NCBI RefSeq assembly: GCF_000720175.1
Contig: NZ_JOIX01000119.1
Location: forward strand, 1-20,240
Length of the DNA: 20,240 bases
Reading direction: 5' to 3'
Origin: Streptomyces sp. NRRL S-337
Lineage (GTDB): Bacteria > Actinomycetota > Actinomycetes > Streptomycetales > Streptomycetaceae
This document shows positions 136 through 19,019 of this stretch, piece after piece; position 1 is the first letter of the stretch, and each line of letters opens with the position of its first letter. The position numbers and the translations under genes are program-made. Below the pieces are notes generated by a model. It was not told the DNA's origin and did no database searches. It worked only from the letters and a program-made list of their open reading frames with translations.

Positions 136-876
136 GTGAAGAAGCGTATCGGGTCGTACCCGCGTGTCCGCATCGAGGGCGGCGGCCGGGCGGTGGTCTC
201 GCAGGCCGGGAGCGTGCTGCTGGTCGAGACCGTCCGCAAGGCCGGTTTGGACACCGCGATATCAGCGGCGCTGACGCCGTGGCGGAAAACTCGGATGGTG
301 CACGATCCGGGCAAGACCCTGCTGGACGTGGCCCTGGCGGTCGCGCTGGGCGGGGACTGTCTCGCGGATGTCGCCATGCTGCGGGCCGAGCCGGCCGTGT
401 TCGGGCCGGTGGCCTCCGACCCGACGGTCTCCCGCCTCGTCGGCACCCTTGCAGCCTCCGGGGAGAAAGCCCTGCGGGCCATCCGTGCCGCGCGGGCTGA
501 AGTCCGCCGACCTGTCTGGCGGCTGGCCGGCCGGAAAGCGCCTGACGCGGGCGGGACCGTGACCGTGGACCTCGACGGGGTGCTGGTGATCGCGCACTCG
601 GACAAGGAGGACGCCGCACCCACGTGGAAGCGAACCTACGGCCACCACCCGCTGATGGGGTTCGTCGACCACGGACCGGGCGGCACGGGTGAACCGGTCG
701 CGGCCCTGCTCAGGCCGGGCAACGCGGGATCGAAAACGGCCGCCGACCACATCACCACCGCCCGCCTGGCCCTGGCCCAGCTGCCGAAGAAGTACCGGCG
801 CGGGCGCCGGACCCTGATCCGCACCGATTCCGCGGGCGGCACCCACGACTTCGTCGCCTGGCTCGCCCGGCGGGGA
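136..876 (+). pseudogene. IS1380-family transposase, 3' half missing
   Basis: The reading frame opens at GTG 136 with a KKRIGSYPRVRIEGGG N-terminus characteristic of actinobacterial IS1380-family transposases. About 247 residues are colinear with the family, which is usually about 450-470 residues long. The first catalytic Asp region (VTVDLDGVLV) and the second (LIRTDSAGGTHDF) are visible. After FVAWLARRG the family sequence stops abruptly at about 876, and the frame runs on to 1005 in unrelated sequence that overlaps the start of the SulP gene. The third catalytic acidic residue and the C-terminal half are lost, so the protein should be inactive. Neither terminal repeat of the element was recognised. 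The IS5-like end just upstream may have replaced the left one. Confidence 0.85.
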
Positions 877-959
877 CTTCGGGGAGGGCCGCCCCGGCCT
901 TCCTGCCTCCCCGCACGCCGTTACGACGACGTGCCCGACCACGACTGGTACTGCCCTCC

Positions 960-5373: not shown

Positions 5374-6645
5374 TCACCTTCTCTTGCGGCGCAGAACCTT
5401 CGCCCCGTGCCAGCGGCAGACGTTGAGGGCGAAGTGGAGGTCGAAGGCGTCGGCGTCGAGGTTGAGGTGGTAGTGGTCGACGGTCCGTTGAACGCGGTAG
5501 TGGACAGTGTTGCGGTGGACCATCAGCTGGTCCGCGGTGGCGGCGTAGCTTCGGTGGGTGGCGAGGAAGACGCGGAGCGTCTCGCGGAGGATTGCGTTGC
5601 GGGGGTCGTCGACGGCGAGGTCGCCGAGGGTGTCGGAGACGAAGTCGGCCAGTTCGCGGGGCTCGTCGACCAGGAGGGCGACGGGGGCGACGCGGGCGAA
5701 GGCTACCGCGCGGGGGGTGCTGGGGCCCGCGGAGAGGGCGAGGGCCTTGGCGCGGGCGGCGGCGCGGGTGCTGCGGCGGAAGCCGTCGAGTCCCGGGCGG
5801 ACGATGCCGAGGGCGACCCGCACCGGTAGCGCGGCGTCGGCCAGTTCGGCGGCGATCGTGTCGGGGTCCACCGGGCAGTCGGGCCTGACGGCAAGCCAGA
5901 TCCGGGCGTCGGCCTCGTCGGTGTGTACCAGCAGGGGGCGGCCCTGGGCGCGCAGGAGGGTGCACAGCAACGAGGCCAGCCGGTCGAAGACGGCGGCGGG
6001 GTCGGTGGTGGCCGCGGTGCCGTGGAGCCAGCCCTCGACGGCCACATGGCTGCCGGACAACCGGTGATCGAGGGCGGCCTCGGCCTGCCGCAGATCGACC
6101 TGGGGGTTGTCGAGGAGCTGGCCCACCCAGTACTGGCGCAGCATGCCGCGGGTGCCCACCCAGCGTTCGCGCTCCTCCTCATACACCCGGCCGATCTGGT
6201 CGCAGACCCGGTCCAGGTAGGCCGAGGTGAGGCTGACCAAGCTGATGACGGTGTCGGCCGGATCCGGCAGCCCCAGGCGGACCGCCTCCCCGAGAACGAG
6301 GTCCAGGCTTTGCGCATGTCCCAGGCGGTAGGCGCGCAGCAGGGCCGAGAGCGGCACGTCGCGCTGGGCGAGCCGACGAGCGTACGAGACGGCCGAGGCG
6401 GGCGCGTCCACGGTCTGCGGGTCGATGCGGTTGATGACGACGTGCAGGGCAGTGACGATGTTCTCGGTGATGCTTGCTTCCAGCAGCCCGCGCAGGGATT
6501 CGTCGTGTTCCAGCTGGGCGATTTCCGCCTCGGTGGTGGCTACCAGCTTGGCGATGAACTCGTCCCGGTGCGCCTGCATCACCTGGGCCGCGAGGACGAC
6601 CGGGTCCGATGCCCCGTCCGCCGGCCGTTCCGCTGGGCCGTTCAC
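5374..6645 (-). CDS. PucR/CdaR-family transcriptional regulator with RsbRD-like N-terminus
   Basis: A 423-residue regulator. The C-terminal PucR helix-turn-helix is clear (LRETLRVFLATHRSYAATAD, then HRNTVHYRVQRTVD, about residues 352-395). The middle (about 190-330) matches the degenerate GGDEF-like domain of this family. The N-terminal helical part (QAHRDEFIAKLVATTEAEIA, about 20-155) resembles the RsbRD-type sensory domain often paired with PucR. The start is GTG 6645: its GTGA overlaps the stop codon of the oxidoreductase gene by 4 bp, which indicates translational coupling. A longer frame to 6732 would overlap the upstream gene by about 90 bp and is not needed. It is the last gene of the ligase operon, so it probably regulates that operon or is autoregulated. 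Its signal is unknown. Confidence 0.9.
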   Translation of the reverse strand: MNGPAERPADGASDPVVLAAQVMQAHRDEFIAKLVATTEAEIAQLEHDESLRGLLEASITENIVTALHVVINRIDPQTVDAPASAVSYARRLAQRDVPLSALLRAYRLGHAQSLDLVLGEAVRLGLPDPADTVISLVSLTSAYLDRVCDQIGRVYEEERERWVGTRGMLRQYWVGQLLDNPQVDLRQAEAALDHRLSGSHVAVEGWLHGTAATTDPAAVFDRLASLLCTLLRAQGRPLLVHTDEADARIWLAVRPDCPVDPDTIAAELADAALPVRVALGIVRPGLDGFRRSTRAAARAKALALSAGPSTPRAVAFARVAPVALLVDEPRELADFVSDTLGDLAVDDPRNAILRETLRVFLATHRSYAATADQLMVHRNTVHYRVQRTVDHYHLNLDADAFDLHFALNVCRWHGAKVLRRKRR

Positions 6646-8057
6646 CGGTCCAGGTACCGCAGCGCCGAGCGGGCGGCGTTCGCACCGCACATACCGTGCA
6701 CCCCGGCGCCGGGTGGGGTGGCCGCCGAGCACAGGTAGACGCCGGGGATGCCGGTGCTGTAGGGGTCAGGGGCCAGCCGGGGGCGGAGCGCGACCTGCCG
6801 TGTGGTGTTGGCACCGGCGACGATGTCACCACCGACGAAGTTCACGTTGTAGCGGGCCAGTTCGGCGGTCGAGCGCACCGAGCGCCCCACGATCCGCTCC
6901 CGGAAGCCCGGCGCGAACCGCTCGATCTGGCGCAGCACCGCCTCGGTGGCGTCACCGGGATAGCCATGCGGCACGTGCGCGTACGCCCAGATCGGGTGGA
7001 CGTCGCCGCGGGACCGGTCGGGGTCGGCGAGGTACTGCTGGCCGACCAGGACGAACGGGCGCTCGGGCATCCGCCCGCCGGCGGTCTGCGCCTCCGTGCG
7101 GACGACCTCCTCCAGGGTGCCGCCCAGGTGCACGGTGCCCGCGCGGCGGCATGCCTCATGGGTCCAGGGGATGCCTCCCTGGACGGCGAGGTCCACTTTG
7201 AACGCGGCCGGGCCGTGCCGCCAGCCACGGTAGGCCCGGCGTACCCGGCCGGGCAGCCGGTCGCCGCAGATGCGCGCCGCGGCGCCGGGCGCGGTGTCGA
7301 GCATGACGATCCGGGCGGGGGCGAGTTCGGCCAGGGAGTCCACCCGCACCCCCGTCTCGATGGTCCCGCCGAGTTCGGCGAGCATGGCGGCCAGCGCATC
7401 GGTAATGGTCCGCGACCCACCGCGGGCGACCGGCCAGCCGAAGCGGTGGGCGGCGCCGATGAGCATCAGCCCGACCGCGGAACTGGTCGGCCCGGTGAGT
7501 GGATACATCAGATGCGCCGCCGCCCCCGCGAACAGCGCCCTGGCTTCCGCACCACGCCAGCGCCGAGCCACCGCTGTGGCCGGCTGGAGCGCCCGGAGCC
7601 CGAAACGGGCCAGGGCCACCGGGTGCGCGGGCAGATGCGGCACCGGGCGCAGTACGTCCTCGGTAAGCGCCTCGAAGTCGTCCGCCAGCGGGGCGAACAG
7701 CCGCTCCCAGGCCGGGCCGTCCGCGCCGAGCCCGCGCACGGTCCGCTCCACCGAGCGGACCAGCACCCCGGCCCGGCCGCCGTCCAGCGGGTGCGCCAGA
7801 TCGACCTCGGGCCACGCCCATTCGACGCCGTACCGTTCCAGGCCGAGGGTCCGCAGGAACGGCGAGCCGACGCCCAGCGGGTGCACCGCGGAGCAGTGGT
7901 CGTGCAGGAGGCCGGGAAGGGTCAGTTCGCTGCTCCGGGTGCCGCCGCCGATGTCGTCGGCGGCCTCCAGGACGGTCACCTTGAGCCCCCGCTGGGCCAG
8001 GGCGACGGCGGCGGCCAGCCCGTTCGGGCCGGCCCCCACCACCATCGCGTCACTCAT
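6642..8057 (-). CDS. Phytoene-desaturase-like FAD-dependent oxidoreductase (CrtI/PYROXD2 type)
   Basis: A 471-residue flavoprotein. The N-terminal dinucleotide-binding motif VVGAGPNGLAAAVALAQRG is followed by VTVLEAADDIGGGTRS, where the Glu would contact FAD ribose. The C-terminal FAD-closing segment is GIPGVYLCSAATPPGAGVHG with GANAA. The length and these motifs fit the CrtI/PYROXD2-like branch. Members desaturate or oxidise lipophilic substrates, but many actinobacterial ones have no assigned reaction. The start codon overlaps the end of the DUF3556 gene by 8 bp (ATGAGTGA), and its stop overlaps the PucR start, so the three genes are translationally coupled. No carotenoid genes (crtB, crtE) are present, so a carotenoid role is unsupported. 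The neighbouring membrane protein suggests a membrane-associated or lipid substrate, which is inference. Confidence 0.88.
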   Translation of the reverse strand: MSDAMVVGAGPNGLAAAVALAQRGLKVTVLEAADDIGGGTRSSELTLPGLLHDHCSAVHPLGVGSPFLRTLGLERYGVEWAWPEVDLAHPLDGGRAGVLVRSVERTVRGLGADGPAWERLFAPLADDFEALTEDVLRPVPHLPAHPVALARFGLRALQPATAVARRWRGAEARALFAGAAAHLMYPLTGPTSSAVGLMLIGAAHRFGWPVARGGSRTITDALAAMLAELGGTIETGVRVDSLAELAPARIVMLDTAPGAAARICGDRLPGRVRRAYRGWRHGPAAFKVDLAVQGGIPWTHEACRRAGTVHLGGTLEEVVRTEAQTAGGRMPERPFVLVGQQYLADPDRSRGDVHPIWAYAHVPHGYPGDATEAVLRQIERFAPGFRERIVGRSVRSTAELARYNVNFVGGDIVAGANTTRQVALRPRLAPDPYSTGIPGVYLCSAATPPGAGVHGMCGANAARSALRYLDR

Positions 8058-9801
8058 GTGCGGCCGCCACCCCGGTCGCCGGTCGCGGTGCCCGGACGGG
8101 CTCGACGGGGATCACCGGCGCCTCGTCGTCGAGCCAGGGCTGGCGGGCCACCATGTCCCGCACGTTCACATAGCCCTCCTCGATCAGGCCGGTCGCCGCG
8201 TCCACGATGCGGTAGTGCTGGCGCGAGCGGTGCGTCGGCTGTGACTCCAGCAGGATGACGCGCAGGTCGCCCGGCGCGAAGCCGCACCGCTGCTGTACGG
8301 CGGCCACCAACTGCTCGTTGTGCAGATGGCCGTCGCCGAAGTTCCAGCCGAGGATCGCTCCCGCCACCGTCTCGCCCTCCCGCACATCGTAGGCCTCCAC
8401 GTCGTCCAGGGCCCGGGGCAGCAGTCCGACCAGCGCGCGGCCGTGGCTGTGCATCGCACGGAAGGCCAGCCCCTGGTGCAGCACCAGCTCGGCGGCCTCG
8501 GCACCGTACAGGCGGGTGAGCTGGTCGACGGGCAGTCCGGAGGCTTTGAGGATGTGCTCGTTGAGCCGGTGCTCGGTGCCCTTGCGGAAGCACCACAAGC
8601 TGGTGGCCCAGTTGCCGGCGTAGTAGCGCATCGAGGGGAGGAACGACACGAGGTCGGGGCGGACGTGGCCGAGCAGCGGGACCACCACCAGGCTCAGCAC
8701 CAGCACCGCGGCCAGCAGCGGGGAGTGCAGGGCGAAGGCGCCGACGGCCGCGTCATGGCTGAAGAGGACGAGCGCCGAGTAGATGAAGAAGACGTTCCAC
8801 TCCAGCGGCACGGCCATCGGGAAGGTCGACATGATGTGCAGATGGAAGACGACCATCACGGCCAGGGCGATCGCGGTGACGGTCCCGCCGTGCGAGAGCA
8901 CCAGGACCAGTGGCACCGCGTACTCGATGACCGTGCCGCCGTGCGCGACCGAGGCGGCGAGGGCGGACGGCCTGAGGTCGTCGGGGTAGTGACGGTAGAG
9001 CCGGCGCTTGAGCCAATCCGGGCGCATCGGACTGTTGCTGATCATCACCGCCACCACGAACGGGAAGTGGCGGTTGAGCTTGGACGAAGCGGCGCCCCAC
9101 CACAGGGCGAGCATGACCAGTTTCAGCGCGGCGGTCATGTCCGCCACCGGGAAGAGGAAGACGACCAGCGTCAGGCCGTAGTGCTCCGCGCGGGCGGCGA
9201 GGAAGACGGTCTTGTCGCGCAGCCCGAGCAGCGCGAGCAGCGTCACGAGGACGGCGACGCGCCACGGAGCCAGGACGCCGACCGCGCCCGGGCCGACCGC
9301 GCCGCCCGGTGACCAGAGCAGCCACACCGCGGCTCCCAACCCCGCTGCGTACAGCGTCACATCGGCGGCCGTCCGCCGCGTCCCCGAGGTGAACGGGATC
9401 CTGCCCGGCCACGGCGGCAGCCGTACGGTGCCCGGCCGCAGCCAGTGCAGGAAGGCGCCGACCGGCGGCAGGAAGCGTGAGCTGAGCGGGCCCGAACCGC
9501 AGCCGAGGCCCAGGACCTCGTACAGCAGCGTCCAGACGACGAGTTTCTGATAGACGATCGGCTCGGCCCACCATGAACTGAAGTGCGCGATGCTGCCGAC
9601 GCCGGGGTTCGCGGAGACGACGGCGATGCCGCCGAGGGCGTACGCCGTGATCTTCACCAGGTACAGCAGGTGCACGATGCCGGGGGTACCGAAGCCGTGC
9701 CTGACCCAGTGCTCGGCCAGCGGCCTGATGCGTTGCTGGTAGGGGCGGTTGCGCCACTGCTGTATGTCGACGTCCGCCATGTTCGGTGCGAGGAATCCCA
9801 T
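8050..9801 (-). CDS. DUF3556 family polytopic membrane protein
   Basis: A 583-residue protein that I recognise as DUF3556 from its N-terminus (IRPLAEHWVRHGFGTPGIVH) and overall layout. The family is found mainly in mycobacteria and related actinomycetes and has no established function. Hydrophobic segments lie at about residues 42-63, 86-100, 147-163, 178-194, 207-238, 288-304, 307-322, 335-349 and 360-378. A soluble C-terminal region of about 200 residues follows. GGAG lies 6 nt upstream of ATG 9801. The gene starts 19 bp after the ligase stop and overlaps the FAD oxidoreductase gene by 8 bp, so it is central to the operon. The His/Arg-containing loops (KLNRHFPF, HLHIMSTFP) could be functional, but I see no catalytic motif I can name. 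Confidence 0.85.
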   Translation of the reverse strand: MGFLAPNMADVDIQQWRNRPYQQRIRPLAEHWVRHGFGTPGIVHLLYLVKITAYALGGIAVVSANPGVGSIAHFSSWWAEPIVYQKLVVWTLLYEVLGLGCGSGPLSSRFLPPVGAFLHWLRPGTVRLPPWPGRIPFTSGTRRTAADVTLYAAGLGAAVWLLWSPGGAVGPGAVGVLAPWRVAVLVTLLALLGLRDKTVFLAARAEHYGLTLVVFLFPVADMTAALKLVMLALWWGAASSKLNRHFPFVVAVMISNSPMRPDWLKRRLYRHYPDDLRPSALAASVAHGGTVIEYAVPLVLVLSHGGTVTAIALAVMVVFHLHIMSTFPMAVPLEWNVFFIYSALVLFSHDAAVGAFALHSPLLAAVLVLSLVVVPLLGHVRPDLVSFLPSMRYYAGNWATSLWCFRKGTEHRLNEHILKASGLPVDQLTRLYGAEAAELVLHQGLAFRAMHSHGRALVGLLPRALDDVEAYDVREGETVAGAILGWNFGDGHLHNEQLVAAVQQRCGFAPGDLRVILLESQPTHRSRQHYRIVDAATGLIEEGYVNVRDMVARQPWLDDEAPVIPVEPVRAPRPATGVAAAHE

Positions 9802-9820
9802 GACTGTCTCCCGCTTCCGT

Positions 9821-11278
9821 TCAGCCGGCCGTGATCAGGGCGATGGTCCTGGCTCGGAGCGCAGGCTTGTCCGTCTTGCCGACGGGATTCCTCGGCAGTC
9901 GGTCGACGAGGGTGATCTCGGTGGGCACCTTGAACCTGGCCAGCCGGGCCCGGCAGTGGTCGAGCAGGTCGGTCGCGGTGGCCGACGCGCCTGCGCGCAG
10001 CGCCACGAAGGCCACGGGAACCTCGCCGAGCCGCTGTTCGGCGGCGCCCACCACGGCGGCTTCGAGCACAGCGGGGTGGTCGCCGAGGACGGTCTCGATC
10101 TCCTTGGGGTAGATGTTCTCGCCGCCCCGGATGATCATGTCCTTGATGCGGTCGACCAGCACCAGATAGCCGTCCTCGTCGAAGCGGCCGACATCGCCCG
10201 TGTGCAGCCAGCCGTCGACCACGGTGCGGGCGGTCTCCTCCGGGCGGCCCAGATAGCCACGCATCACGTTGGGCCCGCGCACCACCACCTCACCGGTCGT
10301 CCCCGCAGGCACGATCCGGCCCAGCGGGTCCATCACGGCGACCTGCTGGCCGGGCAGCGGCAGTCCGACCGTGCCCGGCTTCCGCGGGCCGTCCAGCGGG
10401 TTGGTGGTGGAGGCGCAGGTGCCCTCGGACAGGCCGTAGCCTTCCAGGATCGGGATGCCGTAGCGACGCTCGAACCGGTCGATCAGCGCGGGCGGCATCG
10501 GGGCCGCCCCGCAGGCGGCGAACCGCACCGACGACGTGTCGGGCGGCATCTGGCCCGGCAGTTCGGCGAGCATCGAGTAGATCGCCGGGACCGCGGAGAA
10601 GCAGGTCGGGCGGGCCGCGGCGACCACGTCGAAGAAGGTCTCGGCCCGGAACCGCCCGGCCACCGTGACCCGGCCGCCGGCCAGCAGCGGGGACAGCACG
10701 CCTACCACGATCCCGTTGACGTGGAAGAGCGGCAGGATCAGCAGGCTGTGGTCGGCCTCGGACAGCCGGGCGGCCTCGATCATCATGCCCGCCATGGCGG
10801 CGAGGTTGGCGTGGTCGAGCATCACGCCCTTGGGGCGCCCGGTGCTGCCGCTGGTGTAGATCAGCAGGGCGAGCGCATCCGCGTCCGTCTCCGGTGCGGC
10901 CGCGTCTTCGGGCCCGGCGCCCAACTCGGCCACCGTGAGCGCCCCGTCGAGCGGCGACGGCTCGGCGGTGACGACCACCGCGGCACCCGCGTCGCCGAGC
11001 TGGTATCGCACCTCGCCCTCGGTGAGCGCCGGGTTGACGGGGGTCACGGTCGCACCGAGCCGCCAGGCCGCGAAGAGCGCGACGACGAAGTCCGCCCTGT
11101 TGGGCAGCAGCAGCGCCACGACGTCCCCACGTCCGACGCCCCGCGACCGCAGGCTCGCCGCGGCCCGGCGCACCCGGCAGGCGAACGCCGCATTACCCAG
11201 AACTGACGCTTCGTCAGCGATGCAGGGGCCGTCCGCGTCCCTCCGGGCCCGCAGATCCGGCAGTTGCGCGATATGCAT
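9821..11278 (-). CDS. AMP-forming acyl-CoA ligase (ANL superfamily)
   Basis: A 485-residue adenylate-forming enzyme that would activate a carboxylic acid with ATP and then CoA. Core motifs are complete: P-loop YTSGSTGRPKG (141-151), YGLSEGT (281-287), GDVGRFDEDGY (361-371), hinge DRIKDMIIRGGENIYP (376-391) and catalytic Lys468 in RNPVGKTDK. The length is at the short end for medium- or long-chain ligases. Substrate cannot be read directly. ATG 11278 was chosen because GAGGAG sits 6 nt upstream; the open frame extends to 11536 but that part is low-complexity, Arg-rich and unlike the family. It is the first gene of the second operon, separated from the acyl-CoA dehydrogenase by a gap with strong hairpins. 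Confidence 0.92.
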   Translation of the reverse strand: MHIAQLPDLRARRDADGPCIADEASVLGNAAFACRVRRAAASLRSRGVGRGDVVALLLPNRADFVVALFAAWRLGATVTPVNPALTEGEVRYQLGDAGAAVVVTAEPSPLDGALTVAELGAGPEDAAAPETDADALALLIYTSGSTGRPKGVMLDHANLAAMAGMMIEAARLSEADHSLLILPLFHVNGIVVGVLSPLLAGGRVTVAGRFRAETFFDVVAAARPTCFSAVPAIYSMLAELPGQMPPDTSSVRFAACGAAPMPPALIDRFERRYGIPILEGYGLSEGTCASTTNPLDGPRKPGTVGLPLPGQQVAVMDPLGRIVPAGTTGEVVVRGPNVMRGYLGRPEETARTVVDGWLHTGDVGRFDEDGYLVLVDRIKDMIIRGGENIYPKEIETVLGDHPAVLEAAVVGAAEQRLGEVPVAFVALRAGASATATDLLDHCRARLARFKVPTEITLVDRLPRNPVGKTDKPALRARTIALITAG

Positions 11279-11574
11279 GTCCGCTCCTCGAAGTACGTCG
11301 ACGGCCGTCGGGCGGACGCAGTGCGCGTCCCGACGCGGGACGGATGTCCGGTACGTGAGGAGAGACGGTACGAATCTGCGGCGCCGCCGGCCCATGGGCG
11401 CGGGCGACGACGCTCGGGCCGGTACTTGTGCGCGGCGCACGAAGCCGGGTATCACGCAGGACCGGTCCGCGCCGGGGCACGTGGCTCTCGGGCCGGCGCG
11501 GCACACCCACACTGGTCCGCGCCGGCGCCGAGGCACGGTGGACTCGGGGCCGGCGCGGGGTGGGGGAGCCGCCG
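11279..11574 (-). promoter_or_regulatory. Intercistronic region of about 300 bp, probable promoter of the ligase operon
   Basis: This gap contrasts with the overlaps and 19-38 bp spacings elsewhere in the cluster. It holds the tandem hairpins in its upstream half. The roughly 180 bp before the ligase start would have to contain a promoter, but I cannot point to convincing -35/-10 hexamers. The ligase ribosome-binding site GAGGAG is at the downstream end. No gene is visible in it. Confidence 0.4.
11464..11558 (-). terminator. Two tandem GC-rich hairpins between the two operons
   Basis: CCGCGCCGG occurs at 11467-11475 and 11517-11525, and its reverse complement CCGGCGCGG at 11493-11501 and 11550-11558. 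This gives two 9-bp stems with loops of 17 and 24 nt. The two units are imperfect direct repeats (11464-11501 and 11514-11558). They begin about 17 nt beyond the stop of the acyl-CoA dehydrogenase gene, as expected for a terminator of the upstream operon. The identical arms allow alternative pairings. Confidence 0.5.
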
Positions 11575-12822
11575 TCAGACGAAGGCGCTCTCGCCTGTGA
11601 TCGCCTTGCCGACGATGAGCGTGTTCATCTCACGGGTGCCTTCGAACGAGTAGATCGCCTCGGCGTCGGCGAAGAACCGGGCGATGTCGTAGTCGAGGAC
11701 GATGCCGTTGCCGCCGAAGATCTCCCGGCACCACCCCACCACCTCGCGCATCCGCGAGGTGACGAACGCCTTCGCCAGCGAGGAGTGCTCGTCACGGAAG
11801 ACGCCGGCGTCCTGCAGCCGCGCGAGCTGGACCAGCATGCCCCAGCAGGCGGTGATGTTGCCCAGGCTCTTGACCAGCAGGTCCTGCACCATCTGGAACC
11901 GCGCTATCGGTCGGCCGAACTGCCGGCGTTCCTTGGCGTAGTCCAGCGCCAGCTCGTAGGCGCCGATCATCACGCCGAGAGCCTGCCAGGCGACCCCGCT
12001 GCGGGTGGCACGGAGGATCTCCGCCACATCGCGGAAGGAGTCGATCCGCTGCAGCCGGTTGGCCTCGGGCACCTTGACGTCGGTCAGGGTGATCTCGGCG
12101 TTCTCCACGATCCTGAACGCGATCTTGTTCTCGATCTTCACGGGGGAGAAGCCCGGGGTGCCCTTCTCCACCACGAAGCCCTTGACCTTGTCGTCCGCCT
12201 CGTCGCGGGCCCAGACGACCACCAGGTCGGCGAACGTCGCGTTGCCGATCCACCGCTTGGCCCCGTTGAGCACCCAGTTCTCCCCGTCCCAGCGGGCGGT
12301 GGTCCGCATCCCTCCGGCCACGTCGGAGCCGCCGAGCGGTTCGGTCATCGCGAAGGCGCCGATGCTCTCCAGCGCGGCCATCGAGGGCAGCCAGCGGTCC
12401 CGCTGCTCCTGGTCGCCGCCCCGGTAGATGCTGTACATTGCCAGGCCGCTGTGCACGCCGAAGAAGGTGGCGCTGGAGGCGTCGGTGCGGGTGTACTCCA
12501 TCGACAGCATGCCGATCAGCAGATTGCTCCCCGCCGGCAAGGGGTCGCCGTATCCCTCGTAGGGGACGCCGGCGAGGCCGAGCTCGCGGAACCTTCCGAT
12601 GAGCTCGGGGGGAAACTCCCCCTTGGCCCAGTACTCGTTGACCAGCGGCTTGACCTCGGTGCGCAGGAACGCCCGGGCCCGCAGCAGCAGTTCGCGCTCG
12701 TGCGGCGGCAGCAGCGACTCGAAGTCGTAGAAGTCCGCGGCCAGGCGTTCGTCGACGGAAGCCTTCGCGTATGCCTTCTGGGACGCCTTCTCGGATGCCT
12801 TCTCGGGCAGCAGGGCGGTCAT
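11575..12822 (-). CDS. Acyl-CoA dehydrogenase (glutaryl-CoA dehydrogenase/ACX4-like branch)
   Basis: A 415-residue flavoenzyme expected to oxidise an acyl-CoA to the 2-enoyl-CoA. The family signature AMTEPLGGSDVAGG (158-171), substrate/FAD segment KRWIGNATFADL (189-200), ERRQFGRPI and GGNGI are present. The probable catalytic base is Glu394 in YSFEGTREMN, the position used by glutaryl-CoA dehydrogenases. By eye, the Arg and Ser of glutaryl-CoA dehydrogenase that bind the distal carboxylate (in YRSAMSVQS) are replaced by Ala and Gly (SSATFFGVHS). A plain short-chain acyl-CoA substrate, as for plant ACX4, is therefore more likely than glutaryl-CoA. ATG 12822 has GGAG 8 nt upstream and overlaps the stop of the previous gene (ATGA). 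Residues 7-22 are a tetrapeptide repeat. It is the last gene of the first operon. Confidence 0.93.
   Translation of the reverse strand: MTALLPEKASEKASQKAYAKASVDERLAADFYDFESLLPPHERELLLRARAFLRTEVKPLVNEYWAKGEFPPELIGRFRELGLAGVPYEGYGDPLPAGSNLLIGMLSMEYTRTDASSATFFGVHSGLAMYSIYRGGDQEQRDRWLPSMAALESIGAFAMTEPLGGSDVAGGMRTTARWDGENWVLNGAKRWIGNATFADLVVVWARDEADDKVKGFVVEKGTPGFSPVKIENKIAFRIVENAEITLTDVKVPEANRLQRIDSFRDVAEILRATRSGVAWQALGVMIGAYELALDYAKERRQFGRPIARFQMVQDLLVKSLGNITACWGMLVQLARLQDAGVFRDEHSSLAKAFVTSRMREVVGWCREIFGGNGIVLDYDIARFFADAEAIYSFEGTREMNTLIVGKAITGESAFV
12757..12804 (-). repeat. Four tandem 12-bp coding repeats in the acyl-CoA dehydrogenase N-terminus
   Basis: The codons for residues 7-22 form four degenerate 12-bp units, giving EKAS, EKAS, QKAY and AKAS. 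The repeat lies in a disordered leader before the conserved fold. Gain or loss of units would stay in frame. Confidence 0.7.
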
Positions 12823-13775
12823 GACCGGTTCTCCTTCTCCACGCTGATGACGCTGTCCCGGGCGGACAGCACGGCGATCTGCTTGGCGTCGCGCTCCCGG
12901 CTGAGGTCGGCGTAGGAGCGGGAGCCGTACGCGTCCTCGACGGCCGCGACGAGCCGTTCGGTCTGTTCGGGACTCTGCTCCGGGCGGCCGAGCGAGTCCC
13001 ACATCTTCTGCATCGATACGCCGATGTGCTCGGCCATGTGCCGGTAGCCGCCGGGGCCGCCGCCGAGGTGCGCGCCGAGGAAGGGACCCACCGTCGCCCA
13101 GCGCAGGCCGAGCGAGTTCACCACGACGGTGTCCAGGTCCGCCGGGCTGACGACGCCCTGCTCGACCAGGTAGATCGCCTCCCGGCTGAGGGCGTTCTGC
13201 AGGCGGTTGCCGACGAAGCCGGGGATCTCCTTGCGTTCCACGACCGGGACCCGGCGGACGAAGCGGTAGAAGTCCACGGCCCGCGCCACGCTCTCCTCGG
13301 AGGTGCGCTCCCCCGGCACCACCTCCACCAGCGGCACCAGATGCGGCGGGTTGAAGGGGTGACCGATCAGGACCCGGTCGGCCTCCTCGATGGTGTCGGT
13401 GAACGCCGTGGCGGGGATCGCCGAGGAGGAGCTGAGCAGCAGCGCGTGTGCGGGGGCCGCGCCGACCAGGGTGGTGAACAACTCCCGCTTGAAGTCGGCG
13501 TTCTCCGGCCCGTTCTCCTGGACGACGTCGGCGTCGCGCACCGCGTCGGCGAGATCGTCGGCGATGTGCACCCGCTCGGCGAGGCCGTGCGTGTCCAGGC
13601 CCTGCGCGGCCAGATGGTCGGCCGCCCGGTCGAGCGCCTCGTTGACTGCCTCGGCCAGGTCCGGCCGCGGGTCGGTGACGCGTACCCGCATGCCGTGGCC
13701 GGCGAAGAGCGCGGCCCAGGACAGGCCGATCGTCCCGGCGCCGACCACCGCGGCGGTGGTGAATGGCTTGGTCAT
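12819..13775 (-). CDS. 3-hydroxyacyl-CoA dehydrogenase-family NAD-dependent enzyme
   Basis: A 318-residue NAD(P)-dependent dehydrogenase of the 3-hydroxyacyl-CoA dehydrogenase superfamily. The Rossmann motif VVGAGTIGLSWAALFAGHG (residues 10-28) is followed by VRVTDPRP, whose Asp suggests NAD preference. The catalytic His139 (GHPFNPPH) and Glu151 (LVEVVPG) are present, and IPGFVGNRLQNALSREA marks the C-terminal dimerisation domain. The layout also matches lambda-crystallin/L-gulonate dehydrogenase and L-carnitine dehydrogenase, so a free 3-hydroxy acid substrate is possible. In this operon it would oxidise the hydratase product to a 3-oxo compound. ATG 13775 has AAGGAAG 7 nt upstream. The stop overlaps the next start by 4 bp. 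Confidence 0.92.
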   Translation of the reverse strand: MTKPFTTAAVVGAGTIGLSWAALFAGHGMRVRVTDPRPDLAEAVNEALDRAADHLAAQGLDTHGLAERVHIADDLADAVRDADVVQENGPENADFKRELFTTLVGAAPAHALLLSSSSAIPATAFTDTIEEADRVLIGHPFNPPHLVPLVEVVPGERTSEESVARAVDFYRFVRRVPVVERKEIPGFVGNRLQNALSREAIYLVEQGVVSPADLDTVVVNSLGLRWATVGPFLGAHLGGGPGGYRHMAEHIGVSMQKMWDSLGRPEQSPEQTERLVAAVEDAYGSRSYADLSRERDAKQIAVLSARDSVISVEKENRS

Positions 13776-13813
13776 CACATGTCTTCCTTCTGCTTCCGTG
13801 GCCGTGGCCGCGC

Positions 13814-14560
13814 TCACCGCGCGGGGTGAGCCAGGTAGTCGTGGACGGGCTTGACCGGCGCCAGGGTCAGATCGGTCAGGATGTGGCTGGCGGAGACGAT
13901 CTCGCGCACCGGCAGGTCGGCAAGCGGTGCCAGCGCGTGGTCGCACAGCTGCAGCCGGGCAGGACCGGTCCAGGCGCCCTTCACCGTGATGTCGGTGATC
14001 TCGGTGCGCACCAACTGGGCCACCTGCGGCGCCCCGTCGAAGCCGGGGACCAGCTTCAGCATGTAGGTCGGCACACCGACCTGGGCCACGGCCTCCTCGA
14101 CCGGCAACTCGTAGTGCTTGTAGCCCATCGTGGCGGCGGCCACCCGAAGCGTGCCGACGTCGAGGACACCGACCAGCGCGCCGTGATCGACGTAGAGGGC
14201 AGGCGATCCTGCGGTCTTGGGGTAGGCGCTGGCCTCGCGGCCGGACGTGATGGCCGGAAGGTTGTCCAGGTACATCGCGTGCAGGTACTCGCCCCGCTCA
14301 CCCTCGTAGCGGACCGGGATCGCCTGGCCGGACTCGGTGTACGGTCCGTACCCGCTGACGTCGCCCATGCGCATGACCTCGAAGCGCACCAGCGGCTCGT
14401 CGATCTCCAGCGGTTCCGGTACCACCGCGCGCAGTGCGTCGTAGTCGGTGCGGTAGACGATGTTGAGGTACTCGCGGTTGTTGAACCGCGGTACGACCGG
14501 CGGATAGGCCGGGTGGGTCAGTGGCGTCGCGATGTGCCGGGGCACGTCCTGCTGTTTCAT
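13814..14560 (-). CDS. Acetoacetate decarboxylase family protein
   Basis: A 248-residue enzyme, close to the length of the clostridial acetoacetate decarboxylase. The Schiff-base Lys lies in REASAYPKTAGSP at residue 115, the number I remember for Clostridium acetobutylicum. Arg29 (NNREY), Glu61 (VRFEVM) and Glu76 (YTESG) also fall at the remembered active-site positions. The clostridial neighbour Lys116 is Thr here, so pKa tuning of the active Lys may differ. Expected chemistry is decarboxylation of a 3-oxo acid to a methyl ketone. Some family members instead catalyse aldol/dehydration reactions, but retention of both Glu residues argues for decarboxylation. ATG 14560 is preceded by AAGGGGA. 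It lies 19 bp after the hydratase gene and 38 bp before the dehydrogenase gene. Confidence 0.92.
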   Translation of the reverse strand: MKQQDVPRHIATPLTHPAYPPVVPRFNNREYLNIVYRTDYDALRAVVPEPLEIDEPLVRFEVMRMGDVSGYGPYTESGQAIPVRYEGERGEYLHAMYLDNLPAITSGREASAYPKTAGSPALYVDHGALVGVLDVGTLRVAAATMGYKHYELPVEEAVAQVGVPTYMLKLVPGFDGAPQVAQLVRTEITDITVKGAWTGPARLQLCDHALAPLADLPVREIVSASHILTDLTLAPVKPVHDYLAHPAR

Positions 14561-14579
14561 CGTGTTCCCCTTTCGTGTC

Positions 14580-15350
14580 CTACTGGCCCTGCCAGACCGG
14601 GGACCGGCGCTCGGTGAAGGCGGTCATGCCCTCACGTACGTCCGCGGAGGCCGCGAGCCGGGCCATCTGCTGCCCCTGCACGGCGAATGCCTCCGCCTCC
14701 GGCGCGCCGTCGGCGGCGCGGACGAGTTCCTTGACGGCGGCCAGCGCCAGCGGGGCGTTCTGCGCGATCCGCTCGGCCAGTTGCAGTGCGGTGGCGACGG
14801 TCTCCCCGGCCGCAACCACACGGTTGGCGATGCCGAGCTGTCCGGCGCGTTCGCCGGAGACCGGTTCCCCGGTCAGCAGCAGTTCCATCGCCAGGTGGTA
14901 CGGGATGCGCTGTGGCAGACGGATCACCCCGCCGCCCGCTGCGATCAGCCCGCGGCTGACCTCCGGGAGGCCGAATCGGGCGTCGTCCGCGGCGACGATC
15001 AGATCGCAGCCCAGGGCGAGTTCGAAGCCGCCGCCCATGGCCCAGCCCTCGACGGCGGCGATCAGCGGCTTGGTCGTCCGGGCCTGGGTCAGGCCGCCGA
15101 AGCCGCGCCCCGGGATCTCGGGCGATTCACCGGCGAGGGCGGCCTTGAGGTCCATCCCGGCACTGAACGTGCCCTGGGCGCCGGTGAGCACGCCGGCCCG
15201 CAGGGCGGGGTCCGCCTCCAATTGGTCGAGGGCCGCGGACAGTCCGGCGGCGACGGCCGCGTTGACCGCGTTGCGCGCCTTCGGCCGGTCGATGGTGATG
15301 AGCAGGGACGAACCGATGGTCTCGGTCCGCACCTCGGTGTTGCTGCGCAT
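14580..15350 (-). CDS. Enoyl-CoA hydratase/isomerase family protein
   Basis: A 256-residue crotonase-fold enzyme that would hydrate a 2-enoyl-CoA to the 3-hydroxyacyl-CoA. Oxyanion-hole segments FSAGMDLK (62-69) and WAMGGGFELALGCD (103-116) are present. Both hydratase acids are conserved: Glu110 in GGGFEL and Glu130 in FGLPEVSRG. The C-terminal EGMTAFTERRSPVWQG is the usual family ending. ATG 15350 has AAGGA 8 nt upstream; the open frame extends to 15653 but would overlap the CoA-transferase gene. The gap to the upstream gene is 26 bp. Having both Glu residues favours hydratase activity over isomerase or decarboxylase variants. Confidence 0.93.
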   Translation of the reverse strand: MRSNTEVRTETIGSSLLITIDRPKARNAVNAAVAAGLSAALDQLEADPALRAGVLTGAQGTFSAGMDLKAALAGESPEIPGRGFGGLTQARTTKPLIAAVEGWAMGGGFELALGCDLIVAADDARFGLPEVSRGLIAAGGGVIRLPQRIPYHLAMELLLTGEPVSGERAGQLGIANRVVAAGETVATALQLAERIAQNAPLALAAVKELVRAADGAPEAEAFAVQGQQMARLAASADVREGMTAFTERRSPVWQGQ

Positions 15351-15376
15351 GGTGTGAGTCCTTGATTGGCGGTGGG

Positions 15377-16543
15377 TCAGCGGCCTGCGGCGAGTTCCCG
15401 GAAGACCTCGTCGGTGTGCTGGCCGGGCAACGGGGCGGGCCGGCGAACCGACCCCGGGGTGGCGGAGAACCGCACCGGGATGCCGACCGAGCGGATGGCG
15501 CCCTCGCTGGGGTGGTCCACCACATCGAGCAGCCGGCCGCCGCGCACGTAGGGGTCCTCGGCGGCCCGGTCGAGTTCGAGCACGGGCGCCATCGGGATGC
15601 TGTGCTTGGCGCAGACCCGCTCCCACGCCTCGGTGGTCAGGCTCGGCGAGCACTCCCCCACCAGCTCCATCAGGGCATCGACGTCGTCATCAGCGATGGA
15701 CTCGCCGTTGACGCGCGGGTCTGCGGCGAGGTCAGCACGTTCGGCGGCGAGGAAGAAGTCCCGGAAGTTCTGCGGGTTGTACGGCATGACGCAGGCCAGG
15801 CCGTCCTCGGTGGGCACCGCGCGGTGCCCCCTCTTCATCGACAGCGGGAACCCGGTGGGACCCTCCGGCGGTTGGAAGACGTGGCCCGCCAGGTGCTCGA
15901 CGAGGTTGAACGCGATGAGCGTGTCGGTCATCGGGATCTCGATGTACTGGCCGGCGCCGGTACCGGCGCGGTGGACCAGCGCGGCGAGCACCGTGTAGAC
16001 GATGGTGAGCGCGCAGACCTTGTCGCCGATGATCGTCGGTAGGTACGCCGGGGTGCCCAGCGCCCGGTTGGCCACGTCCACCAGGCCGGAAGCGGCCTGC
16101 ACGGTCTCGTCGTAGGCCGCGTTGCCGGCCCGGTCGGAGTCGCTGCGGAAACCCTGAGCGTGGGCGTAGACCAGGCCTGGGTTGCGGGCGGCGACGTCGG
16201 CGTGGCCGAGGCCGAGGCGGGCGAGCGCGCCCGGACGCATGTTGGTGACCAGCACGTCGGCGCTATCGATCAGCTCCAGGGCCCGTGTCCGGTCGGCGTC
16301 GTCCTTCAGGTTCAACGCCACGCTGCGCTTGTTGCGGTTGACGTTGAGGTTGAGCGGGGTCATGCCGGGTGTGGTGCGGTAGGGGCCCACCCGTACCGTG
16401 TCGGACGGGGACTCGATCTTGATGACGTCGGCGCCCAGGTCGCCCAGGATCTGCGCCGCATAGGGCCCCATCACCACCGTTGACAGATCGATCACCCGCA
16501 CGCCGTCCAGCGGACCTGTGATGCCGGCGGCCGTGATATCCAT
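15377..16543 (-). CDS. CaiB/BaiF-family (class III) CoA-transferase
   Basis: A 388-residue class III CoA-transferase, normal length for the family. The N-terminal GPLDGVRVIDLSTVVMGPYA and LGDLGADVIKIESP are diagnostic. The catalytic Asp that forms the acyl anhydride is Asp145 in AYDETVQAASG. Members move CoA between two carboxylic acids without ATP; donor and acceptor are not readable here. It is the first gene of the operon, so CoA transfer may be the entry step or a CoA-recycling step. ATG 16543 was chosen because AGGAG lies 5 nt upstream; ATG 16546 and GTG 16549 are in frame and possible. Its upstream region contains a LysR-box-like palindrome and an inverted repeat ending at the ribosome-binding site. 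Confidence 0.93.
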   Translation of the reverse strand: MDITAAGITGPLDGVRVIDLSTVVMGPYAAQILGDLGADVIKIESPSDTVRVGPYRTTPGMTPLNLNVNRNKRSVALNLKDDADRTRALELIDSADVLVTNMRPGALARLGLGHADVAARNPGLVYAHAQGFRSDSDRAGNAAYDETVQAASGLVDVANRALGTPAYLPTIIGDKVCALTIVYTVLAALVHRAGTGAGQYIEIPMTDTLIAFNLVEHLAGHVFQPPEGPTGFPLSMKRGHRAVPTEDGLACVMPYNPQNFRDFFLAAERADLAADPRVNGESIADDDVDALMELVGECSPSLTTEAWERVCAKHSIPMAPVLELDRAAEDPYVRGGRLLDVVDHPSEGAIRSVGIPVRFSATPGSVRRPAPLPGQHTDEVFRELAAGR

Positions 16544-16553
16544 CATCACTCCT

Positions 16554-16607
16554 GTTCACGCAGTAATTTCATCGCGAATGTTTCCACCGGCGACGTTATG
16601 CGTGAAC
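16554..16607 (-). promoter_or_regulatory. 9-bp inverted repeat in the leader of the CoA-transferase operon
   Basis: GTTCACGCA at 16554-16562 and TGCGTGAAC at 16599-16607 are exact reverse complements, and with one bulged base the stem extends by three more pairs. In the transcript the 3' arm directly abuts the AGGAG ribosome-binding site of the CoA-transferase gene. It could be a protein-binding site or an RNA stem affecting translation. Confidence 0.45.
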
Positions 16608-16660
16608 GAGCCCAAAGGGAATGATCAACTAGCGAACAAGGGCATGACCGCAGCGGTCAT
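16593..16660 (-). promoter_or_regulatory. Candidate promoter and LysR-type operator of the first operon
   Basis: A perfect 17-bp palindrome, ATGACCGCAGCGGTCAT, lies at 16644-16660 between the LysR gene and the operon it probably controls. A possible minus-strand promoter is TTCCCT (16616-16621), a 17-bp spacer and TAACGT (16593-16598). If transcription starts near 16586, the palindrome is centred around -66, the usual recognition position for LysR-type activators. The hexamers are weak matches; the palindrome itself is certain. Confidence 0.5.
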
Positions 16661-16702
16661 ACCTGTTCCAGTAAACCCCCGAAAAGTGTGGCCGAAAGCC
16701 GG

Positions 16703-17614
16703 TCAGACGGAGATGACCTCGCTGAAGATCTGCCGCGCCCGGCCGGCGACGTCACTCAGATCTCCGTCGGCACTCGCCCGATCCCTGCGGAACAACAGCC
16801 CTGTTGTCAAGGCCGGTTGGAAGTCATCGACGGGCAGCACGGCCACGTTTTCCAGCCGGTACAGATGCATCGGACTCTCCGGCGAGAGCATGGTCATCGA
16901 GAACGCGATCCCGGAGGAAATCAATTCCGAGCTTCCGGAATAGTCCGCCATATTGATGCGGATTCTTTTCTTCACGCCGACCGAATTCAGTCGGGCGTCG
17001 ATTTCCTCGAAATATGCCGGGGTGACGTCGTTCGGTGTCGCCACATAGGACAGGTCGGCCAGCTCCTCCAGGGTCACCGACGCCCGCCCCGCGAACCGAT
17101 CAGCCGGCACCGCGGCACCCAGCCGCTCGCGCATCACCTCGATGATCTCCAACGCCGGATCGGAGACCGGCAGCCGGGCCAGCGCCATCGCCAGCCTTCC
17201 GTCGTGCACCGCCTCCGCCAGGTCCGCCGATGTGCCGGGCCAGCGCTTGAGTTCGCACACCTCCTGACAGGCGTCCTCCAGCAGGCGGACTCGCTCCCGC
17301 AACAGCGGATGCACTCCGGCGGGCATCCCGATGAACAGCCTGTCCAGCCGCGGGCGCACCGCCTCGCTCAACCGCCACGGAATCGAGTTGACCTGCTCCA
17401 GGATGTCGCGCGCCATCGGCAGCAGCGCGGCACCCGCCGTGGTCAGGTCGACCCGGTGGGTGGTGCGCTCGAAGAGCTCGTAACCGAGTTCGCGTTCCAG
17501 ATCCTTGATCCGCTGGCTCAGCGGAGAGGCCGCCATGTGCAACCTGCGTGCCGCCTGGGAGAAGTTGAGTTCCTCGGCCACGGCAACGAAATAACGCAGG
17601 TGCAGAATGTCCAC
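16703..17614 (-). CDS. LysR-family transcriptional regulator
   Basis: A 303-residue LysR-type regulator. The N-terminal helix-turn-helix is canonical (DILHLRYFVAVAEELNFSQA, then ARRLHMAASPLSQRIKDLER, residues 2-41, continuing to LTTAG). The rest is the periplasmic-binding-like effector domain. GTG 17614 gives the usual family start and has GGGTGA 5 nt upstream; GTG 17623 and ATG 17632 are possible alternatives. It points the same way as the operon and sits 159 bp upstream of it, rather than being divergent as is common for LysR genes. The intervening palindrome suggests it controls the CoA-transferase operon. The inducer is likely the pathway acid or a CoA ester, which is inference. Confidence 0.92.
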   Translation of the reverse strand: MDILHLRYFVAVAEELNFSQAARRLHMAASPLSQRIKDLERELGYELFERTTHRVDLTTAGAALLPMARDILEQVNSIPWRLSEAVRPRLDRLFIGMPAGVHPLLRERVRLLEDACQEVCELKRWPGTSADLAEAVHDGRLAMALARLPVSDPALEIIEVMRERLGAAVPADRFAGRASVTLEELADLSYVATPNDVTPAYFEEIDARLNSVGVKKRIRINMADYSGSSELISSGIAFSMTMLSPESPMHLYRLENVAVLPVDDFQPALTTGLLFRRDRASADGDLSDVAGRARQIFSEVISV

Positions 17615-17881
17615 GCCGGTCACCCTACCCATGCCAAGAGCCCCCGACGGCAGGGCGTCGAACGCAGGCCGTGGGCGGCCGCAGCCCGCGGACCGTCCAC
17701 GGGCCGTAAGTCGAGTCAGCCGGAGACCACGGGGGCGAGACGGATGAACTCCTGAAGGCGGGCAGCGCCCATCGCGACGACAGTCATCAGTACTCACCCT
17801 CCCGAATCCTGATCACGGCGGTGGCGACCCACCACGTCGCCCTCCGACAGCTACTGGACCGGGGCCGCAAGCAGGGCTTGA
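17615..17881. other. Junction between the LysR gene and the ISAs1 remnant
   Basis: This stretch holds the LysR leader, a GC-rich imperfect hairpin at 17667-17705 (CCGTGG paired with CCACGG), a possible 23-codon ORF at 17716-17787, and sequence just outside or at the end of the ISAs1 remnant. On the plus strand, 17821-17880 reads an open stretch including ALRQLLDRGRKQGLI, which might be a fragment of another gene. I could not identify it. Confidence 0.3.
17716..17787 (-). CDS. Possible 23-residue ORF upstream of the LysR gene
   Basis: The frame reads MTVVAMGAARLQEFIRLAPV plus three residues and a TGA stop. It is preceded by a purine-rich ribosome-binding sequence (GGAGGGTGAG) ending 5 nt before ATG. 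It may be a leader peptide, or the start of a gene truncated when the ISAs1 element and its neighbours rearranged. No family is recognised. The good ribosome-binding site is the only real support. Confidence 0.25.
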   Translation of the reverse strand: MTVVAMGAARLQEFIRLAPVVSG

Positions 17882-19019
17882 TCAAGTTCCGTAGGTGTCC
17901 GGATCGTTGGTGATGCCCAGGATGGGGAGTGCTCGCTTGGGTTCGTCGCGGATCGCTCGGGTGGTCTTGGATGTGGTGCGAGGAGTTCTCGATTCCCCAG
18001 TGTCCGCGGATCGCGGTGGCCAGGTCGGCAGGGCCGGCCTGGTGGGCGTGGAGGCTGGTGACCGCGTAAACGCTTTCGCGGGTCTCGCGTGCGCCGGTCT
18101 GCTTGCGGCGGCGGTGGACGCGGATGGCCAGGAGGGCGTGGGGGAAGGCGATTCCGCCGAGTCCGTCGGAGATCCCGCAGGTCTTGATCGAGCGGGACTC
18201 GCGGCGTCCGTGTCCGGTTTCGGAGGCGGTGTGCTGGACGGGGATGCCCTGCCAGGGCAGGCCCGCGATCTGGCGGTGGGCGACCGGCTGGTTGGTTTTG
18301 ATCACGGCGATGTAGTGGGCCCTCTTGATCTCGACCAGCCAGGAGATGTTCGCCTTGACCGAGTGGAGGGCGTCGAAGGTGACGACGGTGCCGGCCAGGT
18401 CCAGCGGCGCCAGCAGCGGTCGGAAATGTGAGGTCTCGTTCGTCTTGGTGCCGACCTCCACCTGGGCGAGGGTCACGACGGTGCCGTGGGTGACCGCGGA
18501 GAGCAGATGCCGGCGCGTCGCGGTCAGACGGGCTGCCCCCTTGAGGGCTTTGCCGTCGACAGCGATCACCCGCGGCAGCCTGGACGCGCAAGCCGACATC
18601 GCCTGGTCGGGTCCGGTGGCGGCGCGGTGCCGGTCGGCCAGGTAGGCGCCCACCGCGCGGTCCAGGGCATCCCCGTCGACAGCCGCCAGCACACGGCCGA
18701 TCGTGGCCGGCGACGGAGCGTGCCGCCATCCGGGCAGGTGACGTCGGATCCCGATCACTGTCAGCAGTGCGCTGGAGGCACGCTGGCCCCATTCGGCGAG
18801 CTCCTCGATGCTCCTCGCTCCCGAGACAACCGCGCAGGCACATACCAACAGGATCGCCGTCAGCGAGTACCACCGGCCGCGCCGTGCGCGCGGGTCGGGC
18901 ACCGAGTCGAAGTAGGGGCGCAGATCAGCGATCCCTCCGGCGTCCAGCGGACCCAGCTTCATCAGCACGGCAGGGATGGGAGAAGATGCAGCGGCAGGCA
19001 CGGGCAACCTCATGATCAT
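17882..19019 (-). pseudogene. ISAs1-family transposase with internal deletion and frameshift
   Basis: From ATG 19019 the frame encodes the ISAs1-type N-terminal region (DLRPYFDSVPDPRARRGRWY), the first DDE segment RVIAVDGKALKGAARL, and the later VVTFDALHSVKANISWLV and RGHWGIENS segments. After GIENSSHHI the sequence jumps to the C-terminal codons KTTRAIRDEPKRALPILG and ITNDPDTYGT, which lie in a different frame and stop at 17882. About 45 residues between the two parts are missing, and the main frame reads on out of register to 17787. The deletion removes the segment corresponding to APRAMATLRNLAIGALKTLG, which survives in the plus-strand fragment at 19128. The protein is probably inactive. 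Confidence 0.88.

Follow-up and report, generated by a model that had tools for sequence, protein, structure and literature searches.

What would an operon that resembles one for beta-oxidation make, if a decarboxylase stood in place of the thiolase? The question is raised by a gene cluster of Streptomyces sp. NRRL S-337 that encodes a coenzyme A (CoA)-transferase (CoAT), an enoyl-CoA hydratase (ECH), an acetoacetate decarboxylase (ADC), a dehydrogenase of the 3HCDH fold (HDH) and an acyl-CoA dehydrogenase (ACAD). The cluster lies within contig NZ_JOIX01000119.1, whose whole length of 20,240 nucleotides (nt) was analysed and is referred to here as the window; the genome assembly has a size of 9.06 Mb. 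The original prediction for this locus held that ACAD, ECH and HDH together make a 3-oxoacyl-CoA, that the transferase passes its CoA to an incoming acid, and that the free 3-oxo acid is decarboxylated to a methyl ketone, with ATP needed only for priming by a neighbouring ligase. The analysis described here agrees on the enzyme families, adds a regulator to the unit, removes the ligase from it, and somewhat favours a CoA swap one step earlier. Judging from the genes, the probable task of this cassette of soil actinomycetes is the oxidation of a small acid, followed by removal of CO2 to leave a ketone.

The five enzyme genes occupy positions 11578-16546 of the window on the minus strand, in the order CoAT-ECH-ADC-HDH-ACAD (open reading frame calls, with families from Pfam and NCBIfam). 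As had been claimed, all five families are present, adjacent and tightly packed in one operon. Family annotation covered nine minus-strand proteins (6645-17632), and the coordinates of the genes discussed below are quoted without stop codons:

17632-16706, minus strand: LysR-type regulator, 309 amino acids (aa), Pfam HTH_1 and LysR_substrate, with an alternative start at 17614
16546-15380, minus strand: CoAT, class III (CaiB/Frc fold) CoA-transferase, 389 aa, PF02515 (CoA_transf_3) at 312 bits
15350-14583, minus strand: ECH, EchA1-like enoyl-CoA hydratase, 256 aa, PF00378 (ECH_1) at 199 bits and NCBIfam PRK08252 at 377.5 bits (cut-off 282)
14560-13817, minus strand: ADC, acetoacetate decarboxylase, 248 aa, PRK02265 at 363 bits (cut-off 150) and PF06314
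13775-12822, minus strand: HDH, 3HCDH-fold dehydrogenase, 318 aa, Pfam 3HCDH_N and 3HCDH, nearest to the lambda-crystallin, FHMPC dehydrogenase and carnitine dehydrogenase kind
12822-11578, minus strand: ACAD, ACX4/GcdH-like acyl-CoA dehydrogenase, 415 aa, from Pfam, NCBIfam and solved relatives
11278-9824, minus strand: AMP-forming acyl-CoA ligase, 3' of the cassette, PF00501

With stop codons included, the gaps are 26 nt between CoAT and ECH, 19 nt between ECH and ADC, and 38 nt between ADC and HDH; the last two genes, HDH and ACAD, share 4 nt (ATGA). A gap of 296 nt follows ACAD, and after it come the ligase, a DUF3556 protein and an FAD oxidoreductase. Scans for sigma-70 promoters and for terminators gave no signal exceeding that of shuffled sequence.

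The scheme that we favour, at slightly better than an even chance, is a LysR-controlled oxidation-decarboxylation cassette in which CoA would be swapped at the 3-hydroxyacyl stage, with oxidation of the free acid and decarboxylation to a methyl ketone to follow. CoAT would put CoA onto an incoming acid (R-CH2-CH2-COOH); ACAD would desaturate the acyl-CoA and ECH would hydrate it to a 3-hydroxyacyl-CoA, two steps suggested by enzyme family and conserved catalytic residues. CoAT would then move the CoA from the 3-hydroxyacyl-CoA to the next incoming acid, releasing a 3-hydroxy acid. HDH, using NAD+, would oxidise this free 3-hydroxy acid to the free 3-oxo acid; among the newly proposed steps this one has the best support. 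The near-canonical ADC would be expected to convert the 3-oxo acid to a methyl ketone and CO2. The acid would thus be bound to CoA during desaturation and hydration only. Because CoAT would reclaim CoA at the 3-hydroxyacyl stage, CoA would turn over catalytically, and a turn of the cycle would require no thiolase, thioesterase or ATP.

The first line of evidence is conservation. Scanning of species genomes with HDH retrieved 59 named loci, from Streptomyces, Amycolatopsis, Crossiella, Lentzea, Actinosynnema and one strain labelled Nocardia. HDH is present in 59/59 by construction, because the loci were found through it; ADC is likewise present in 59, CoAT, ECH and ACAD in 58 each, and the LysR gene in 56. 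The full order LysR-CoAT-ECH-ADC-HDH-ACAD is found in 54/59 loci, which answers the call in the original prediction for a search for co-occurrence of the five families without a thiolase. The five incomplete loci lack ACAD (L027), ECH (L050), the LysR gene (L054 and L063), or both the LysR gene and CoAT (L062); in L054 and L062 the locus starts close to the end of the available stretch. Neighbouring enzyme genes are separated by a median of 9-47 nt across loci (distances between the ends of alignments), and pairwise distances for the six genes correlate (Mantel r 0.76-0.95, against a maximum of 0.47 in 500 permutations; 59 rows with all six genes, window included). The five-family arrangement exceeds chance.

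The LysR gene, which lies upstream of CoAT in 56/59 loci with a median identity of 60%, belongs to the unit. The ligase does not: homologues at more than 35% identity occur in 2/59 loci (L023 and L024), as do homologues of the DUF3556 protein and the FAD oxidoreductase, and only in those two loci does this block trail the cassette. Given the six-gene order and the rarity of the block, the unit is best described as six genes with the ligase as a local addition. The ligase was accordingly rejected as a conserved working part; an unrelated ligase encoded elsewhere in the genome might still contribute. When open reading frames of the same loci were clustered at 45% identity, the next commonest neighbour family reached 17 loci at most; since no further family exceeds that number, no conserved thioesterase, ligase or transporter family was seen, with the proviso that the underlying detection of open reading frames missed some cassette genes and that divergent members of these three kinds could escape the clustering.

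An independent check on the HDH-found set started from ADC. The window's family, Streptomycetaceae as judged from named relatives, was sampled with 394 genomes; 41 of them have an ADC of the cassette kind, at 46 places (window included), and the best-scoring 30 of the 46 loci were inspected. All 30 have a 3HCDH-family gene at most 1.5 kb from ADC, with an identity to HDH of 49-100% in 27 and 31-34% in three, and ECH is present in 21. The three loci with the more distant neighbours are arranged otherwise, as HDH-ADC only. A class-wide sample of 394 genomes contains ten ADC places in nine genomes, again counting the window. HDH adjoins ADC in eight of the ten, and a frame-broken HDH does so in one more; no HDH was seen beside the remaining ADC, which lies on a 5.1-kb contig. 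All ten places have a class III transferase near ADC. At L121 (10066-11109), the cassette HDH reads as frame-broken in the assembly, through either error or decay.

The exact CoAT type is rare, being found at a very strict limit in 2/296 genomes of the phylum, namely the window and a second genome (G067). The locus in G067 (L137, contig C1 near 567685-568851) is a decayed cassette, with the LysR gene and CoAT whole (CoAT 92% identical), ECH in two pieces, and a short ACAD piece directly after the split ECH. The 4.2-kb stretch contains neither ADC nor HDH, and no ADC was found elsewhere in that genome. This broken copy indicates that the cassette can decay and that CoAT can outlast ADC and HDH.

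Shorter modules are informative about the place of the transferase. Several loci of the window's genus (L085-L088, L124 and L126) and one of Bradyrhizobium sp. 186 (L102) pair ADC and HDH with a class III transferase but lack ECH, and have no ACAD within the cluster; in the two modules that were scanned, the transferase domain is preceded by some 240 other residues. Modules of ADC, HDH and CoAT that lack ECH fit CoA transfer at the stage of the hydroxy acid. They also bear on a rival that we regard as improbable, if the least so of the alternatives, in which CoAT merely activates the acid from succinyl-CoA, with release of the 3-hydroxy acid left to a housekeeping thioesterase; the ketone would be the same, and CoA would not be recycled within the cassette. 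The closest solved relative of CoAT is the succinate-hydroxymethylglutarate CoA-transferase SUGCT (formyl and oxalate transferases are also among its solved relatives), as this rival would have it, but the three-gene modules retain a CoA-transferase beside HDH and ADC, and the 45%-identity clustering revealed no conserved thioesterase. The prediction of a class III transferase unrelated to CtfAB is borne out by the PF02515 match and by Asp175, which is present in 63/63 rows and aligns with the catalytic Asp of the family. A plasmid locus of Bradyrhizobium sp. CB82 (L105:7058-12828), possibly a thioesterase-type variant, joins a hydrolase to HDH, ACAD, ECH and a class III transferase, and its annotation shows no ADC in this stretch.

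Whether CoA is swapped before or after the second oxidation depends on the substrate of HDH. If HDH yields a 3-oxoacyl-CoA, CoAT would pass the CoA of that product to the incoming acid and ADC would act afterwards, which is the order first predicted and which we now consider rather unlikely. It agrees with the clostridial precedent. HDH also keeps the 3HCDH fold and the catalytic set of Ser, His, Asn and Glu: Ser137, His158, Asn161, Glu170 and Asn208 of human HAD correspond to HDH residues 118, 139, 142, 151 and 190, which are identical. For this and the other cassette enzymes, conservation was counted in alignments of the window, the 59 named loci and four further cassettes (up to 64 rows), and the conserved residues are assumed to have the catalytic roles known from their families. 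His139, Glu151, Asn190 and Arg225 of HDH are found in 64/64 rows and Asn142 in 63/64, with Ser in one. The best-scoring NCBIfam model, PRK06129, bears the name 3-hydroxyacyl-CoA dehydrogenase, although its cut-off is not reached (272/347 bits). Fold comparison, made with a structure model of mean pLDDT 91.6 after an earlier one (mean pLDDT 69.6, with a poor C-terminal half) was set aside, gave scores that fail to separate the CoA-ester from the free-acid dehydrogenases.

Other features of HDH weigh against a CoA ester as its substrate. Its closest solved relatives are enzymes of free acids, with FHMPC dehydrogenase at 150 bits and lambda-crystallin at 147 and 127, compared with 86 for 3-hydroxybutyryl-CoA dehydrogenase and 74 for human HAD. 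The NCBIfam scores run in the same direction: 219 bits for L-carnitine dehydrogenase (short of the cut-off of 414) and 175 for FHMPC dehydrogenase, compared with 92 for PaaH and 70-119 for models named 3-hydroxybutyryl-CoA dehydrogenase. Lys68 of human HAD holds the 3'-phosphate of CoA (PMC3999109). The residue aligned with it in HDH is Gln58. The entire helix of this segment is deleted in 12/64 HDHs, and of the 51 rows that have at least 18 residues in the segment, 49 are without Lys there; L046 and L052 have one Lys, and in L037 the segment is shorter. The position of Arg225 is also Arg in lambda-crystallin, Lys in FHMPC dehydrogenase and a gap in human HAD, so that the solved free-acid relatives of HDH have a basic residue there.

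Gene partners provide additional evidence. Relatives with about 40% identity to HDH adjoin BKACE in 17/30 BKACE loci (the best-scoring 30, in a set of 101 genomes from the genus of the window), and the HDH of Microvirga ossetica lies directly against a BKACE. The step catalysed by BKACE is described as the one that follows carnitine dehydrogenase, its substrate being the free 3-oxo acid 3-dehydrocarnitine (PMC12482172). These partners suggest that members of the HDH family feed enzymes that use free 3-oxo acids, whether BKACE or ADC. HDH is similar to the dehydrogenases that act on free hydroxy acids; a 3-oxoacyl-CoA is an unlikely product. Because HDH is nearest to free-acid enzymes and lacks the CoA-anchoring Lys, the predicted joint formation of a 3-oxoacyl-CoA by the three oxidative enzymes loses favour, and the CoA swap is likelier one step earlier.

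Other HDH relatives were observed as well. In the Streptomyces sp. NRRL S-337 genome, an HDH-like stretch (42% identical) at C77:18335-19089 (L109) lies beside a partial BKACE match, which is a carnitine-type pairing. A third group, about 50% identical to HDH (L089, L090, L096 and L107), is found beside a luciferase-like monooxygenase, an FMN reductase or a SARP-type regulator, settings that look like secondary metabolism.

The favoured scheme has a special case in which the substrate is named: gamma-butyrobetaine would be converted to L-carnitine and 3-dehydrocarnitine, and by ADC to trimethylaminoacetone. This is doubtful, more so than either alternative above. Each activity has a counterpart in the carnitine pathway, in CaiB, CaiA, CaiD and carnitine dehydrogenase, and the L-carnitine dehydrogenase score of HDH, at 219 bits, also speaks for it. 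The scores for the other carnitine families argue against it, with CaiB at 110.5/413 bits for CoAT, CaiA at 116 and CaiD at 197, all far under cut-off and none the best family, and no conserved transporter family was seen in the 45%-identity clustering. Both 3-dehydrocarnitine and trimethylaminoacetone are known metabolites (PMC12482172).

The remaining enzymes constrain the acid. ECH retains Glu130 in 63/63 rows and Glu110 in 62/63 (one gap), and ACAD retains Glu394 in 62/63 (one gap). ACAD is nearest to the plant short-chain acyl-CoA oxidase 4 (ACX4) and to glutaryl-CoA dehydrogenases (GcdH). The Arg of glutaryl-CoA dehydrogenase, which presumably binds the distal carboxylate, corresponds to Ala118 of ACAD; this position is Ala in 47 rows, Ser in 13, Thr in one and Gly in one, with one gap, and never Arg. 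The replacement speaks against a dicarboxylate substrate, and a glutarate route through a GcdH-like ACAD and a class III transferase was rejected on this ground. Butyrate, which would give acetone, is the simplest candidate. Butyrates with an omega substituent, for example gamma-butyrobetaine, are possible, and glutarate-type dicarboxylates are disfavoured.

The absence of a thiolase from the operon, as first noted, stands. No thiolase family match was found among the nine scanned window proteins (6645-17632), and the 27 thiolase_N matches of the genome, many of them weak and nine with E < 1e-20, are all on other contigs. Thiolases from the same genome match 0/96 loci in a search with seven queries, five of which bear hallmark motifs of thiolases and two of which may be wrong frames. 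Ordinary beta-oxidation or a glutarate route, with the thiolase elsewhere and ADC a side activity, is very improbable, since the likeness of ACAD to GcdH and ACX4 and the thiolases elsewhere in the genome have to be set against an Arg missing in every row with a residue at its position, an ADC in 59/59 loci and no thiolase match in 96.

The decarboxylase is, as predicted, a true member of its family. Lys115, presumably the Schiff-base Lys, Glu76 and Glu61 are found in 64/64 rows and Arg29 in 63/64 (one gap), and the closest solved relative is the acetoacetate decarboxylase of PDB 3bh2 (E=9.7e-99). By family score and active-site residues the cassette ADC appears near-canonical, and decarboxylation is its predicted activity. 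Identity as an ADC-like aldolase was considered and is disfavoured by the retention of Arg29, Glu76 and Lys115, in contrast to such aldolases. One residue departs from the solved enzymes: position 116 is Thr in 30 cassette ADCs, Val in 30 and Ala in four (n=64), whereas the three solved ADCs have Lys. In the ADC-first set, none of the 21 loci that include ECH has Lys at residue 116, compared with 5/9 of those without ECH. Lys116 was formerly credited with lowering the pKa of Lys115, a role that was later doubted. A literature search found no paper on ADC Lys116. The cassette ADCs, lacking this Lys, may use another substrate. The Streptomyces sp. NRRL S-337 genome also encodes another, distant member of the ADC family at 30% identity (C7:115032-115673, L002), and the locus around it (L095) has no match to the cassette genes.

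The genomic surroundings of the cassette vary between genera. In the window, the minus-strand block at 5377-11278 comprises the ligase, the DUF3556 membrane protein (893 bits), the CrtO/CrtI-like FAD oxidoreductase and a conserved gene at 5377-6732. Transposase-like open reading frames lie directly upstream of the LysR gene (17790-19019, minus strand) and at 136-1002 (plus strand), from a reading of the translations alone. ARAGORN places a tRNA-Trp at 7530-7619 (minus strand) within the FAD oxidoreductase gene, which is probably a false positive.

No description of the cassette was found in the open-access literature by title or abstract opening, which does not imply its absence from print. 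That the cassette represents an undescribed pathway from an acid to a methyl ketone in several actinomycete genera, with catalytic CoA and an ADC subfamily naturally without Lys116, is a tentative proposal to which we give somewhat less than an even chance. If true, it would provide a compact, ATP-sparing route from acid to ketone whose five parts could be moved as a single operon, would suggest a role for acetoacetate decarboxylases in actinomycetes, and would mean that genes annotated as 3-hydroxyacyl-CoA dehydrogenases can act on free acids. ADCs of the subfamily that lacks Lys116 are natural variants with which to approach the old question of what sets the pKa of the catalytic Lys.

Each part of the scheme has parallels in known systems. 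In acetone formation by the clostridial ctfAB-adc system, CoA is shifted by a CoA-transferase from an intermediate of the pathway onto a free acid, which leaves a free 3-oxo acid for ADC to decarboxylate. The cassette likewise combines a CoA-transferase with an ADC, close to solved ADCs such as 3bh2, that would act on a free 3-oxo acid. It differs in that the transferase belongs to class III (PF02515), whereas CtfAB belongs to family I; in that the acid would itself be oxidised to the 3-oxo acid, with no thiolase to supply acetoacetyl-CoA; and in that CoA is probably swapped at the level of the hydroxy acid. In the frc-oxc oxalate cycle, the product CoA ester gives its CoA to the incoming acid through a class III transferase. 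A similar hand-over is proposed for the cassette, but the oxalate cycle decarboxylates a CoA ester, with an unrelated enzyme and no oxidation steps.

In the fungus Cochliobolus heterostrophus, DEC1 is ADC-like and LAM1 lambda-crystallin-like. Both are listed among the Tox1 genes for one fungal polyketide, and a Tox1B decarboxylase is reported to be required. Unlike the cassette, Tox1 serves polyketide formation and has DEC1 and LAM1 on inserts apart from each other, and a CoA-transferase is not among the genes named. Plant methyl ketone formation through MKS2 also has a free 3-oxo acid as the precursor of the ketone; there, in contrast to the cassette, a thioesterase frees the 3-oxo acid from ACP, and the enzymes are unrelated.

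The carnitine pathway offers a further parallel: CaiABCD also has a class III transferase that recycles CoA, an acyl-CoA dehydrogenase and a crotonase. The carnitine dehydrogenase LcdH is described as 3HCDH-like and as oxidising carnitine, a 3-hydroxy acid, in its free form, and the cassette HDH, also 3HCDH-like, is proposed to oxidise a free 3-hydroxy acid in the same manner. The differences are that the cassette proteins score below the family cut-offs, and that the free 3-oxo acid of the cassette would pass to ADC, not to BKACE. The enzyme kinds of the cassette are all known and their combination is conserved; the predicted chemistry is known and the arrangement is a variant.

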